From Bacillota bacterium (GTDB taxonomy: Bacteria > Bacillota > Clostridia > Lachnospirales > Bianqueaceae), in NCBI GenBank assembly GCA_017634575.1, contig JAGBND010000151.1, positions 1 to 42,107 of the forward strand: DNA of 42,107 nt, read 5' to 3'. Under the pieces are notes generated by a model that searched no databases, was not told where the DNA came from, and worked only from the letters and a program-made list of their open reading frames with translations. Both the position numbers and the translations under genes were made by a program. Below, one piece after another: positions 1-37,101 of the stretch. Numbering within the stretch: position 1 is the stretch's first letter; each line of letters starts with the position of its first letter.

Positions 1-64
1 AGAAACACAGGGGACGGTTCTGTGTGTTCGCTCGCGAACACACAGAACCGTCCCCTGTGTTTCT
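1..64. repeat. Perfect 30-bp-armed palindrome (REP-like repeat)
   Basis: Positions 1-30 and 35-64 are exact reverse complements around the 4-base loop CTCG. The arms contain GGGGACGGTTCTGTGTG. Palindromes with this GGGGACGGTTCT motif are, from general knowledge, scattered in many Firmicutes genomes and are often linked to REP-associated (IS200-like) tyrosine transposases, but no transposase lies in this window. There is no T-tract directly after either arm, so it does not look like a simple terminator. It lies at the window edge, so flanking context is missing. Confidence 0.8.
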
Positions 65-24797: not shown

Positions 24798-25916
24798 TTA
24801 ATCCACGTACAGTCTTGGCACCCTCTTGGAAACCATACTGACGATCTCATCCACATTTTGGTCCAGGAGCGTGGACATGGCAAGAATGGACATCTCGCCG
24901 CCCAAAAGGTCCACCACATCGCCTCTTTGCGTATCCGGAATGTCTGAAACGTCCACCATAAACTGATCCATACAGACTCTTCCGATAATCGGAGCCTTTT
25001 TACCCCGGATTGTCACCCAGCCCAAATTGGAAAGCCTGCGGCTATAGCCATCGGCAAATCCAACCGGGATGGTGGCAATCCGGGTTTCTTTTTCTGTCCT
25101 GTATGTGCCGCCGTATCCTACCTCGGTTCCGGCCGGCACCGTTTTTACCATGGCCACATGGGTATGCCAGGTCATGACCTCCCGAAGACCCGTCCCTGGC
25201 CAGATCTCTTCATCCACCGGGCAAAGACCGAACAATACATCACCGGCCCGTACCGCATCCAGCTGGGATTCATCGTGCAGCAAAATAGCCGGCGAATTGG
25301 CCACATGGGCCAGCGGGATCTGAATTCCGGCTTCTCTGACAAGGGCAAGGGTTTCCTGATATTTGCTCAGCTGCTTTCTCATGGAAATGCCATCCGCCTC
25401 GTCCGCCCTTGCAAAGTGGGTAAAGGCGCCGACTATTTTCAGATGCTGCAGTTGGCTGATTTTGCGGATCGGCGCCACCGCCTTTTCCCCGGCCGGAAAC
25501 CCAATCCGGCTCATGCCGGTATCGATTGCAATATCCACGGGATGCACCACCCCGGCCATGGATGCCAGCTCATCGATCCGCTGAGCCGTTTCTACTGAAA
25601 AAACAGCGGGAATCAGACGCCATCTGAAAAGCTCCTCCAGCTGATCGTCCCAGGTATCTCCCAGCAGATAGATATCTTCCTCTTCCGCCCCGGCTTCTCT
25701 CAGCTCTCTGCCCTCTTCCCACACAGCCACCGCATATTTTCGAATGCCGGCAGCTTTCATGGTCGGATAAATACCGCGAATGCCATGCCCGTAAGCATCG
25801 CCTTTAATAACCGCAATCAGATCGCATCCTTTATGAAGCCGTTTTTGAATATTTTCTATATTTGCCGCCAGCGCATCCAGATGAATCACCGCGGCCGTGC
25901 GCATTTTCAGTTCCAT
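24798..25916 (-). CDS. alr: Alanine racemase
   Basis: 372 residues, normal length. The PLP lysine K38 is in VIKGDAYGHG (usually KADAYGHG, so a Gly replaces Ala). The second catalytic base Y268 is in EVGYGGTY, and RVCMDQFMVDVSD is the conserved C-terminal segment. It interconverts L- and D-alanine for peptidoglycan. An AGGTGAG site precedes the ATG. Downstream, murT has its own promoter, so the grouping is functional rather than a strict operon. Confidence 0.95.
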   Translation of the reverse strand: MELKMRTAAVIHLDALAANIENIQKRLHKGCDLIAVIKGDAYGHGIRGIYPTMKAAGIRKYAVAVWEEGRELREAGAEEEDIYLLGDTWDDQLEELFRWRLIPAVFSVETAQRIDELASMAGVVHPVDIAIDTGMSRIGFPAGEKAVAPIRKISQLQHLKIVGAFTHFARADEADGISMRKQLSKYQETLALVREAGIQIPLAHVANSPAILLHDESQLDAVRAGDVLFGLCPVDEEIWPGTGLREVMTWHTHVAMVKTVPAGTEVGYGGTYRTEKETRIATIPVGFADGYSRRLSNLGWVTIRGKKAPIIGRVCMDQFMVDVSDIPDTQRGDVVDLLGGEMSILAMSTLLDQNVDEIVSMVSKRVPRLYVD

Positions 25917-25950: not shown

Positions 25951-25978
25951 TGTGGCAGACTTGGCTTAGTCTACCACA
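25951..25978. promoter_or_regulatory. Inverted repeat upstream of alr
   Basis: TGTGGCAGACT (25951-25961) and AGTCTACCACA (25968-25978) are complementary except for one pair. On the minus strand it overlaps a possible -10 (TAGACT) placed 17 bp from a TTGCAA -35 at 25991-25996, so it could be an operator for alr or an early transcript hairpin. Confidence 0.5.
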
Positions 25979-26014
25979 AATCTAATCCTTTTGCAAATTT
26001 ACAGGAAAGGGTCG

Positions 26015-26118
26015 CCCCCGGAAGGTCTCTCTGCATACTCTGCCGCAATCCTATCCAAGAAAAAAATCCTTCAGATGCTGCGGAAGCCGTCTGCAGAGAG
26101 ACCTTCCGGGGGCTCTGC
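26015..26118 (+). repeat. Hairpin element, copy 1
   Basis: A 21-bp perfect inverted repeat (26015-26035 with 26092-26112; outer part CCCCCGGAAGGTCTC, inner TGCA) encloses a conserved core that begins TGCATACTCTGCCGC and ends GCGGAAGCCGTCTGCA. CCGC/GCGG pairs inside an asymmetric internal loop, above which lies an A-rich apical part. CTCTGC follows the right arm, then TTTTT at 26119-26123. The core recurs inverted at 26215-26277 with different arms. Confidence 0.85.
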
Positions 26119-26152
26119 TTTTTGTGTGGCAGGTGTGCTATCTTTCACATGT

Positions 26153-26337
26153 GGCGCAAAAGTAAAAGAAGAGGGATTTCTTTCCCAGAAGGCAGAGCCG
26201 CCAGCAAACTTACCTGCAGACGGCTTCCGCACATCCCCAGGATTTTATTCCTGGGCAGAATGGCGGCAGAGTATGCAGGCAAGTTTGCTGGCGGCGGCGA
26301 CGTGCCTTCTTTACGACAGTTTCTCTACTTTTGCGCC
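26153..26337. repeat. 12-bp inverted repeat enclosing copy 2
   Basis: GGCGCAAAAGTA at 26153-26164 is exactly complementary to TACTTTTGCGCC at 26326-26337. The right arm lies inside the 3' end of the ABC ATPase gene and encodes its GAKV segment, so the left arm is an inverted partial copy of that gene end. Confidence 0.7.
26193..26294 (-). repeat. Hairpin element, copy 2 (inverted)
   Basis: A 21-bp inverted repeat with one mismatch (26198-26218 with 26274-26294; outer part CCGCCAGCAAACTT, inner TGCA) around a core that on the minus strand is nearly the same as copy 1 (TGCATACTCTGCCGC and GCGGAAGCCGTCTGCA). The apical stem here is CCCAGGA-N6-TCCTGGG. CTCTGC again follows the arm (26192-26197 read on minus). 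The outer arms are 17 bp in both copies but unrelated in sequence. Confidence 0.85.
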
Positions 26338-26913
26338 AAGCTTTTCTGCATCTTCCGGATCGTGAGTGATGAGCAGCAGGGCTTTTTGCCGGCAGCGTTC
26401 TTTCACCGTGCGAATGACGATGTCTCTGGTTTTATCGTCCAGTCCCTGGAAGGGTTCATCCATCAGTATCACAGGCGCATCAAACAAGAGGGCTCTGCCG
26501 ACGGCGGCCCTTCGGCGCATGCCTCCGGAGAGGGTGGCTGGTTTTTGTGTCAGAACTGCGGGGGATAGACCGAGGTCCCGGCACAGCGATGCAGCTTCGT
26601 CTTTGCCAAGGGCCGGGGCGGCAATCCGCCAGTTTTCATAGACATTCATGGTGTCGAAGAGACGGTCCTCCTGAAAGACGACACTGATCCGGGTGTCGGA
26701 TGTGAGGCCTTCTATTTTGCCGCTGTCGGGTTTTAAAAAGCCCAGCAGCAGGCGAAGGAGGGTGGTTTTGCCGCTTCCGGAGGGCGCCAGCAGCACCGTA
26801 GGCTGCTGGTCCGAAAAGGAAAAGGAAATGTCCTTCAGCACCTGCTTCGATCCTTGATTTTTTCCGGACTCGGCAGGATAAGAAAAGGAGAGCTGTTCGA
26901 TAGAAATCTTCAT
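26311..26913 (-). CDS. ABC importer ATPase (nitrate/sulfonate/taurine type)
   Basis: 200 residues, short for this family (about 240-260). Walker A is APSGSGKTT, the Q-loop VVFQEDRLFDTMNVYENW, signature LSGGMRRRAAVGRALL, Walker B VILMDEPFQGLD and the switch LLITHDPEDAEKLG. The Q-loop EDRL and the downstream residues match the SsuB/TauB/NrtD group. Its start overlaps the permease stop by 4 bp (ATGA). It energises uptake through the permease at 26910-27803. The gene ends right beside hairpin copy 2. Confidence 0.92.
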   Translation of the reverse strand: MKISIEQLSFSYPAESGKNQGSKQVLKDISFSFSDQQPTVLLAPSGSGKTTLLRLLLGFLKPDSGKIEGLTSDTRISVVFQEDRLFDTMNVYENWRIAAPALGKDEAASLCRDLGLSPAVLTQKPATLSGGMRRRAAVGRALLFDAPVILMDEPFQGLDDKTRDIVIRTVKERCRQKALLLITHDPEDAEKLGAKVEKLS

Positions 26914-33564: not shown

Positions 33565-33571
33565 ATCGGAT

Positions 33572-33822
33572 ACTGGCTTTGATGGAGAGTGAAACGGCGC
33601 CTGCTTTTTCAGAGAGTATCCGGTTGGTGAAAGGATATAAAGCCCGCCTTTTCTGATCACTCCTGAGCCTGACTGTGAACAGAACCGCCCGCGGATTCCC
33701 AGTAGCAGATCACGGCACGTCCCGTTACAGACGAAGATCTTGCCTGAGATCGAAAAGAGCGCCAATCAGGGTGGTACCACGTAAACTACGTCCCTGCAGA
33801 TTTATTCTGCAGGGACATTTTT
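33572..33822 (+). promoter_or_regulatory. T-box leader, isoleucine specific
   Basis: T-box sequence AGGGTGGTACCACG at 33768-33781, close to the consensus AGGGTGGNACCGCG. Stem I features are AGAGAG (33611-33616) and GGTTGGTGAAAG (33622-33633). The specifier ATC (Ile) is at 33656-33658, just before ACTCCTGAGC. The terminator is TCCCTGCAGA/TCTGCAGGGA (33791-33800 with 33806-33815) plus T5. Uncharged tRNA-Ile pairs with the specifier and T-box bulge and favours the antiterminator, so ileS is switched on when isoleucine is scarce. Confidence 0.95.
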
Positions 33823-33894: not shown

Positions 33895-36800
33895 ATGTAT
33901 CAGAAAGTCGCAACGGACATGAATTTCACGGAGCGCGAAAACCGCGTGCTGGATTTCTGGAAGGACCAGCACATCTTCGAGCAATCGCTGGCGCTTCGAA
34001 AAGACGCCCCCACCTTTACCTTCTATGACGGTCCCCCAACCGCAAACGGAAAGCCCCACATCGGCCACGTGCTGACCCGCGTCATCAAAGACATGATCCC
34101 CCGCTACCGCACCATGAAGGGATATATGGTGCCCCGCAAGGCAGGCTGGGATACCCACGGACTGCCGGTGGAGCTGGAAATCGAAAAGGCCCTCGGCCTT
34201 TCCGGCAAAGAGCAGATTGAAGCCTACGGCATGGCCCCCTTTATCCAGAAATGCAAGGAAAGCGTTTGGAAATACCAGGGCATGTGGGAAGAGTTTTCCG
34301 GCAAGGTCGGCTTCTGGGCCGATATGGAACACCCCTATGTCACCTATCATGACGACTTCATCGAGTCCGAGTGGTGGGCGCTCAAACAGATTTACGACAA
34401 AGGCCTGCTCTACAAGGGCTTTAAGATCGTGCCCTACTGCCCTCGCTGCGGAACCCCGCTCTCTTCTCACGAGGTCGCTCAGGGCTACAAGAACGTAAAA
34501 GAGCGTTCTGCCGTCGTCCGCTTTAAGGTAAAAGGCGAGGATGCCTATTTCCTGGCCTGGACCACCACCCCCTGGACGCTTCCTTCCAACGTCGGTCTTT
34601 GCGTCAATCCGCAGGAGACCTACTGCAAGGTCAAGGCAGCGGATGGCTATACCTACTATATAGCCGGAGCCCTGCTGGATAAGGTGCTGGGATCCCTTGC
34701 CCGCGAGGGTGAAAAGGCTTATGAAATTCTGGAACAGTACAAAGGCACCGATCTGGAATACAAGGAATACGAGCCTTTATTTGCCTGCGCCGCTGAGGTC
34801 GCTGCCAAACAGCATAAAAAAGGCCACTTCGTAACCTGTGACGACTATGTTACCATGTCCGACGGAACCGGCATCGTCCATATTGCCCCGGCCTTTGGTG
34901 AAGACGACGCCAAGGTGGGCCGCAAATACGATCTTCCTTTCGTCCAGCTGGTGGATGGCCGCGGCAACATGACGGACAACACCCCATATGGCGGTCTGTT
35001 TGTCAAAGACGCCGATCCCAAGATCCTGGTGGATCTGGAAAAACAGGGCCTGCTCTTTGACGCGCCGAAGTTTGAACACGACTATCCCTTCTGCTGGCGC
35101 TGCGATACGCCCCTGCTTTACTATGCCCGGGAATCCTGGTTTATCAAGATGACCGATGTAAAAGAAGACCTGATCCGCAACAACAACCAGATTAACTGGA
35201 TCCCGGAATCCATCGGCAAGGGCCGTTTCGGCGACTGGCTGGAGAACATCCAGGATTGGGGCATCTCCCGCAACCGTTACTGGGGAACCCCATTAAATAT
35301 CTGGGAATGCCCGGACTGCGGAAAGCGCACCGCCATCGGCAGCCGGCAGGAACTGAAGGAGAGGGCCATCAACTGGCCTGACGCCGGCACCGTTTTGGGA
35401 AGCCCCAGCTCCGATCCTTCCAAGGAGGCCTGCAACGTTGAGCTTCACCGTCCTTACATCGATGAGATTCAGGTCCGCTGCGAATGCGGCGGCTGCATGA
35501 AACGTGTTCCGGAGGTCATCGACTGCTGGTTTGACTCCGGCGCCATGCCTTACGCCCAGCATCACTATCCCTTTGAAAACAAAGAGCTCTTCGAGCAGCA
35601 GTTCCCGGCACAGTTCATTTCCGAAGCCGTCGACCAGACAAGAGGCTGGTTCTATTCCCTGCTGGCCGAATCCACGCTGCTGTTCAACAAGCCCGCCTAC
35701 GAGAATGTCATTGTGTTAGGCCTGGTGCTGGATGGCGACGGACAGAAAATGTCCAAGTCCAAGGGCAACGCGGTGGATCCCATGGAAGCCCTCGGCAAAT
35801 ACGGCGCTGACGCGATCCGCTGGTACTTCTACATCAATTCCGCGCCCTGGCTGCCCAACCGTTTCCACGACAAGGCCGTGGTCGAATCCCAGAGAAAGTT
35901 CCTTCGTCCTTTATGGAACACCTATGCCTTCTATGTGCTCTACGCTGAAATCGATCAGTTTGATCCCACCAAATATGCCTTGGAGTACGATAAGCTGTCC
36001 GTTATGGACAAATGGATTCTTTCCAAGCTGAACTCTGTGGTGAAAGCCGTGGATCACGATCTGGAAAACTACATGATTCCCGAGGCCGCCAGAGAGCTGC
36101 AGAGCTTTGTGGATGATCTGTCCAACTGGTATGTGCGCCGCGGCCGCGAGCGTTACTGGGCAAAAGGCATGGAGCAGGACAAGATCAACGCCTATATGAC
36201 CCTGTATCACGCCCTGGTCACCATCTGCAAGGCTGCCGCTCCCATGATTCCCTTTATGACAGAGGATATCTACCGCAACCTGGTGGTGGGCATCGATCCT
36301 TCCGCGCCCTCCAGCATCCATCTTTGCGATTATCCTTCCGTAAACGAGGCCTGGATCGATGAAGCGCTGGAGAAATCCATGGAGGAAGTTCTCTCCGTCA
36401 CCACCCTTGGCCGCGCAGCCCGCAACCTTTCCAATATCAAGAACCGTCAGCCCCTCTCCAAGATGTTCGTCCAGGCGCCGGAAGCCCTGGCCGACTACTT
36501 CTGCGAGATCATCGCTGACGAGCTGAATATTAAAGAAGTTGAATTTACCGCAGATGCCAGCAAATTTGTCAGCTACACCTTCAAGCCTCAGCTTCGCACC
36601 GTAGGTCCAAAATACGGCAAGCTGCTGGGCAAGATCCGCGCGGCCCTGTCCGAAATTTCCGATGGCCAGGCTGCCTACAAGACCCTTACCGGCGGCGGCG
36701 CCCTCACCTTCGACTTTGATGGCCAGAAGGTTGAGCTCTTTGAGGCGGATGTGCTGGCCGAAATGAGTCAGGTCCCGGGCTTTGTCGCCCAGTCCGAGGG

Positions 36801-37101
36801 AGCCATCACCGTTGCTCTGGACACCAACCTGACCAATGCGCTGATTGAAGAAGGCTTTGTCAACGAGCTGACCTCCAAGCTGCAGACCATGCGCAAGGAA
36901 GCCGGTTTCGAGGTCACCGACCATATTCAGATTTATATGGCTGAGAACGATAAGCTTTCCGCCATTTTCAGCGCCAACGCTGCGCAGATCAAGGCAGATA
37001 CCCTCTGCGATGAAATCGTCTCCGCAGCCGATGAAACCTTCTATGTGAAAGATTGGGACATCAACGGCGTAAGCGCTACGCTGGGCGTGAAGAAAATCTA
37101 A
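33895..37101 (+). CDS. ileS: Isoleucyl-tRNA synthetase
   Basis: 1068 residues, longer than E. coli IleS (938) and in line with the eukaryote-like long form found in many Clostridia. It has the class I HIGH motif PHIGHVL near residue 54, an editing domain with FLAWTTTPWTLPSNVGL, zinc-binding CPRCG near 182 and CPDCGKR near 470, and KMSKSKGNAVDP near 618. The anticodon-binding region follows, with a C-terminal DUF5915-like extension. It charges tRNA-Ile and edits valine. Some long-form enzymes are less sensitive to mupirocin, but that cannot be read here. Ribosome site AAAAGGAG. Confidence 0.97.
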   Translation: MYQKVATDMNFTERENRVLDFWKDQHIFEQSLALRKDAPTFTFYDGPPTANGKPHIGHVLTRVIKDMIPRYRTMKGYMVPRKAGWDTHGLPVELEIEKALGLSGKEQIEAYGMAPFIQKCKESVWKYQGMWEEFSGKVGFWADMEHPYVTYHDDFIESEWWALKQIYDKGLLYKGFKIVPYCPRCGTPLSSHEVAQGYKNVKERSAVVRFKVKGEDAYFLAWTTTPWTLPSNVGLCVNPQETYCKVKAADGYTYYIAGALLDKVLGSLAREGEKAYEILEQYKGTDLEYKEYEPLFACAAEVAAKQHKKGHFVTCDDYVTMSDGTGIVHIAPAFGEDDAKVGRKYDLPFVQLVDGRGNMTDNTPYGGLFVKDADPKILVDLEKQGLLFDAPKFEHDYPFCWRCDTPLLYYARESWFIKMTDVKEDLIRNNNQINWIPESIGKGRFGDWLENIQDWGISRNRYWGTPLNIWECPDCGKRTAIGSRQELKERAINWPDAGTVLGSPSSDPSKEACNVELHRPYIDEIQVRCECGGCMKRVPEVIDCWFDSGAMPYAQHHYPFENKELFEQQFPAQFISEAVDQTRGWFYSLLAESTLLFNKPAYENVIVLGLVLDGDGQKMSKSKGNAVDPMEALGKYGADAIRWYFYINSAPWLPNRFHDKAVVESQRKFLRPLWNTYAFYVLYAEIDQFDPTKYALEYDKLSVMDKWILSKLNSVVKAVDHDLENYMIPEAARELQSFVDDLSNWYVRRGRERYWAKGMEQDKINAYMTLYHALVTICKAAAPMIPFMTEDIYRNLVVGIDPSAPSSIHLCDYPSVNEAWIDEALEKSMEEVLSVTTLGRAARNLSNIKNRQPLSKMFVQAPEALADYFCEIIADELNIKEVEFTADASKFVSYTFKPQLRTVGPKYGKLLGKIRAALSEISDGQAAYKTLTGGGALTFDFDGQKVELFEADVLAEMSQVPGFVAQSEGAITVALDTNLTNALIEEGFVNELTSKLQTMRKEAGFEVTDHIQIYMAENDKLSAIFSANAAQIKADTLCDEIVSAADETFYVKDWDINGVSATLGVKKI

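Follow-up and report, generated by a model that had tools for sequence, protein, structure and literature searches.

The two hairpins facing each other in the window (the whole analysed stretch of 42,107 nucleotides) probably belong to a species-specific, non-autonomous family of REPIN/MITE-like mobile hairpins of about 107 nt, with about 48 copies in the assembly. These paralogous hairpins, diverged by half in their arms and yet almost perfectly paired, represent a natural experiment on how the pairing of a stem is kept up. The question posed by the family is whether compensation proceeds stepwise through mismatches or whether both sides change simultaneously by template switching. Moreover, it would add a REPIN-like family outside the classic host bacteria that comprises no dedicated transposase and strongly prefers the sense strand at gene ends.

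Anatomy of the hairpin and the two copies in the window

The element is composed of a GTC tag, a 22-bp outer stem with a variable middle, a bulged core, an apical part and a TC[T/G]G foot, with about 58 nt between the stem arms. The underlying plan reads GTC-GCC-(14 variable)-CTGCA-TACTCTGCCGC-(~33)-GCGGAAGCCGTC-TGCAG-(complement)-GGC-TC[T/G]G and shows small departures in a few of the 25 copies with an exact core. The limits of the copies were set by the covariance model (CM) together with a reading of the sequence, and the resulting features are summarized in Table 1.

Table 1. Features of the two hairpin copies and their surroundings, in window coordinates.
Feature	Position	Strand	Basis
Copy A, whole element (GTC tag to TCTG)	26011..26117	+	CM match 126.6 bits; fold z -6.9
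Copy A, 5' unpaired tag GTC	26011..26013	+	kept in most copies
Copy A, 5' arm, 22 nt; columns 7-20 variable among copies	26014..26035	+	alignment, pair counts
Copy A, core 5' half TACTCTGCCGC	26036..26046	+	invariant in 21/21 aligned copies
Copy A, semi-variable apical region	26047..26079	+	alignment
Copy A, core 3' half GCGGAAGCCGTC	26080..26091	+	invariant in 21/21 aligned copies
Copy A, 3' arm, complementary to 26014-26035, 22/22 pairs	26092..26113	+	
Copy A, 3' unpaired tail TCTG	26114..26117	+	alignment
T-run 3' of copy A	26119..26123	+	T-run enriched 3' of the element across the family
Copy B, whole element; GTC tag 26301-26299, extra GCC	26193..26301	-	CM match 114.1 bits at 26193-26298; fold z -8.3
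Copy B, 5' arm	26274..26295	-	
Copy B, core 5' half	26263..26273	-	
Copy B, core 3' half	26219..26230	-	
Copy B, 3' arm, 21 Watson-Crick pairs + 1 G-T	26197..26218	-	
ABC transporter ATPase gene, stop just before sense-oriented copy B	26311..26913	-	PF00005; ORF
Alanine racemase gene adjoining the hairpin pair	24798..25916	-	PF01168/PF00842
Conventional terminator beyond the pair	25951..25978	-	similar hairpin in orthologous gap of congeners G005/G006

The preliminary description had reported two hairpins with a common core, unrelated pairing arms, a variable apical part and a common CTCTGC tail, all of which was correct. It had located them in the right place with limits that were off by a few bases, and had given the arms as 17 bp; the outer 17 positions indeed vary, while the stem comprises 22 bp with an inner CTGCA common to both copies. 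All pairs of the copy A stem are of the Watson-Crick type, and copy B carries its additional GCC at the 5' foot. Compared to dinucleotide-shuffled sequences, the fold energy of both copies was far lower, none of 200 shuffles being as good.

Pairing of the arms among the copies

The base pairing of the arms is a feature maintained in the family, as had been proposed from the two copies of the window. Among 21 aligned copies, 18 of 30 pairs changed on both sides, and the changes comprised 104 two-sided, 3 one-sided and 5 unpaired cells, with 99.2% of all cells paired. None of 500 shuffles was as good as the observed pairing. The covariation test suggested by the preliminary description gave a score of 0.487, compared to 0.124 after shuffling and no more than 0.099 when the partners were slid. 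All 11 pairs without any variation are located in the core or at the inner end of the stem. In a set of 42 copies with 924 arm cells, 873 cells were Watson-Crick pairs, 25 G-T pairs and 26 other combinations. The arms differed between copies by 50% on average, and the closest copies (3-4 differences) showed 124 two-sided compared to 25 one-sided changes. The few pairing defects look like damage acquired after insertion. Since G-T (25) is in mild excess over A-C (12), selection may to some extent have favoured pairing after insertion. The distances between arms correlated weakly with those between apical regions (Mantel r 0.24, p 0.01).

The arms are part of the element and not captured palindromes. 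An insertion of the core into pre-existing palindromes, corresponding to the palindrome-targeting element suggested in the preliminary description, was rejected, since the arms have a fixed length, carry feet borne by the element itself (GTCGCC/GGCTC) and recur at unrelated sites in several copies. A palindromic extension into the flanks was found for a few copies only.

A concerted alteration of both arms could be explained by template switching or by selection during mobility. Template switching, a mutation mechanism that has been studied, has been proposed for the origin and upkeep of RNA hairpins (PMC8794818) and involves compensatory changes without visible intermediates, as seen here. 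While that work concerns RNA genes across species, the present comparison comprises paralogous copies in one genome, from which template switching is inferred. Mutations in one arm would be copied into the other one by replication template switching within the hairpin; alternatively, only well-paired copies might be mobilised further. Either process would let the arm sequence drift while the pairing persists.

In the surroundings of copy B, a 13-nt stretch from the 3' end of the ABC transporter gene (26326-26338) is repeated in inverted orientation in the spacer between the hairpins (26152-26164), so that copy B lies within a longer quasi-palindrome. This inverted recurrence is a possible template-switch footprint.

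Distribution in the genome and beyond

The genome search for further core copies, proposed in the preliminary description, revealed 25 occurrences of the exact core pattern in the window's own genome, and the covariance model, built on 21 copies, detected 48 copies at E<=1e-9; many further rows of the model output represent the same 48 copies seen on the opposite strand. Thus, neither the hairpin nor the pairing of its arms is confined to the two copies of the window. Since the genome is represented by one draft assembly of 2.64 Mb that is 78% complete, the real copy number is probably higher. Nearly all of the 48 copies fall between predicted genes. Only three close inverted pairs were found among them and most copies are single, so that the facing arrangement in the window does not reflect an inverted pair as the unit of the family.

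As far as sampled, the family is restricted to one species. In the family sample of 19 genomes, the covariance model detected no copy in six congeners and 12 other members, and with stricter filters it gave none in a further 390 genomes from the same class. That the taxonomic family is represented by just 19 genomes here argues against the label 'Lachnospiraceae'. The exact patterns were absent from GTDB contigs and IMG/VR, and blastn against phages and plasmids gave no match, where in both cases the own genome may be hidden from the collections; a phage or plasmid origin was rejected due to the lack of a match in either. A looser pattern gave eight single matches in unrelated taxa, which were rejected as copies in other species since the covariance model gives no support for them. 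At orthologous sites readable in the congeners G003, G005 and G006 the element is absent. Because the congeners are too diverged between genes, none of them offers a clean empty site that would fix the element ends or the target site. The absence from congeners makes the family look mobile, and its range of a single species fits a recent expansion rather than an old conserved RNA gene.

Further repeats were noticed during this comparison. In G006 and G005 (L166/L167) another long hairpin, AAGGACCTCAG...CTGAGGTCCTT, occupies the site of a copy found here and is perhaps another such family. Degenerate hairpin pieces form a tandem array of units of about 60 nt at L117 910-1118, and 84-bp tandem repeats, seemingly inside a coding region, occur at L024 935-1435.

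Relation to known mobile hairpins and position at gene ends

The REPINs of Pseudomonas are mobile hairpins showing compensatory changes (Bertels and Rainey 2011, PMC3116915), and the present element resembles them in its dispersed extragenic location, similar size, compensatory changes and many copies per genome. In REPINs, two invariant 16-mers at the ends hold the REP units and the spacer varies; in the element described here, the bulged centre is invariant, the arms between it and the short feet vary, and no RAYT is linked to it. Of the REPIN-like character suggested in the preliminary description, the size, the hairpin form and the mobile appearance hold. The copies are many, dispersed and extragenic, as in REP and REPIN families, but a GTAG-type foot, a RAYT flanked by the hairpin (with 22% of the genome missing) and inverted doublets as the main unit were not found. 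The element is therefore REPIN-like rather than an established REP or REPIN. Like GTAG and CGTC REPs, the element is a tagged palindrome located mostly 3' of genes, and as for CGTC REPs a dedicated transposase is missing (Di Nocera 2013, PMC3733652). In contrast to these REPs of 20-40 bp with stems of 5-13 bp, it carries a GTC tag without a fixed preceding base (C in only 38% of copies) and no CCA tail, and compared to the CGTC tag, 8-9 bp stem, 4-5 nt loop and CCA tail of CGTC REPs, its stem is 22 bp and its interior about 58 nt long. E. coli TnpA-REP depends on a bulge together with a 5' tag (PMC8266576), and the imperfect hairpin with a conserved bulge, the tag at the 5' foot and the CT near the 3' foot are shared with the E. 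coli BIME/REP that goes with TnpA-REP group 2, from which the element differs in length, tag sequence and the lack of a cognate gene alongside. As a short non-coding element with many copies, whose arms form 22-bp inverted repeats, it also resembles a MITE.

For movement, a putative enzyme of the HUH/Y1 kind (IS200/IS605, RAYT) might recognise the bulged core and the 5' tag in the folded single strand; its gene may lie in the 22% of the genome that is missing, or it may be given in trans. The associated transposase or recombinase sought by the preliminary description was not found: within the 78%-complete genome no mobilising gene could be linked to the 107-nt hairpin, and distant inverted copies enclose ordinary metabolic genes. 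Neither a full-length transposon with matching inverted repeats near the copies nor a target duplication in their listed flanks was seen. Among the candidates tried, a divergent Y1-like protein with a C-terminal HTH (C51, L058 1432-2202) was rejected, as it shows no visible HUH motif and lies next to an ftsY-like ORF; it is possibly domesticated. The C125 fragment was rejected as well, since it resembles the tail of an IS200/IS605 TnpA.

One RAYT gene is present in the genome (C122, NF047646, 84.2 bits compared to a cut-off of 80), and the hairpin could thus be an ordinary REP/REPIN of this RAYT and a member of a REPtron. The bulged hairpin, the 5'-foot tag, the CT at the 3' foot and the occurrence of inverted pairs would agree with such an origin; however, another repeat with the core GGGGACGGTTC (131 exact cores in the own genome, near-absent from congeners; arms AACACA/TGTGTT or ACTTT/AAAGT) lies on either side of the RAYT gene, the tag is GTC(G) instead of GTAG, and the length is 107 nt instead of 20-50 nt, which makes this origin improbable. 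Three composite units, 97.7-99.4% identical, hold the hairpin inside a GGGGACGGTTC inverted pair (L021 813-998, L027 56-227 and L103 958-1143), the one at L027 having outer arms GGTCACTTT/AAAGTGACC in place of AACACA/TGTGTT. These units show a recent spread of a block containing the hairpin, and accordingly the hairpin can be carried by the GGGGACGGTTC repeat, which a few further copies abut. That it possesses no mobility of its own and spread solely inside this RAYT repeat is nevertheless very improbable, because most copies lack such a flank. An inverted GGGGACGGTTC pair is also present at the start of the window (10-55), and several contigs start or end in this repeat.

With gene calls from a simple codon-usage ORF caller, which are approximate, and p-values treating the copies as independent, the gene upstream of 32 of 43 copies is read in the same sense and has its stop codon at a median distance of 22 nt, a stop within 50 nt was found on the sense side in 28 compared to 11 copies on the antisense side (p 0.009), and in convergent gaps the sense stop was the nearer one in 15 of 16 cases (p 0.0005). 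Directly 3' of the element, TTTT was present in 16 of 27 sense copies and in 2 of the 19 others (p 0.0017), the background being 7%; the T-run begins about 5 nt past the stem, and many copies have none. Sense copies therefore occupy the position of intrinsic terminators of the upstream genes, and a terminator function is plausible for them. Such a position, together with the long GC-rich hairpin, could also mean that the element is primarily a functional RNA element of 3' UTRs, acting as an intrinsic terminator or 3'-end stabiliser, with its pairing under RNA selection and its spread incidental. At three checked sites, no conventional terminator was found in the element-bearing gap, while at least one relative has a conventional terminator (some of them weak) inside the orthologous gap or close to it; beyond the hairpin pair in the window, however, the old conventional terminator persists. 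Recognisable terminators are, however, missing from control genes too, and since the finder scored almost none even at control gene ends, the test of the terminator slot is uninformative. In addition, the element occurs in one species only, about one quarter of the copies with gene context have no sense stop upstream, and G-T(U) pairs are about as frequent as other mismatches in the arms, unlike in an RNA stem kept by selection. Altogether, an origin as a functional RNA element is considered unlikely. Likewise, a conserved structured RNA gene family, the other possibility named in the preliminary description, is unlikely, as the hairpin gave no Rfam match and is found in one species only.

For the mobile hairpin family favoured here, an inserted copy would lie in the 3' UTR and may serve the upstream gene as a terminator or 3'-end block. 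A more specific scenario is put forward tentatively, in which both arms of the mobile hairpin are rewritten jointly, for example by copying from arm to arm at replication or movement, and the hairpin inserts in sense orientation at gene ends and becomes their terminator. If true, joint rewriting of the arms would allow the stem sequence to diversify fast while structure and core stay fixed.

The sole Rfam match in the window lies apart from the hairpins and represents a T-box leader (33570-33798), located 5' of a class I aminoacyl-tRNA synthetase gene (33895-37101).
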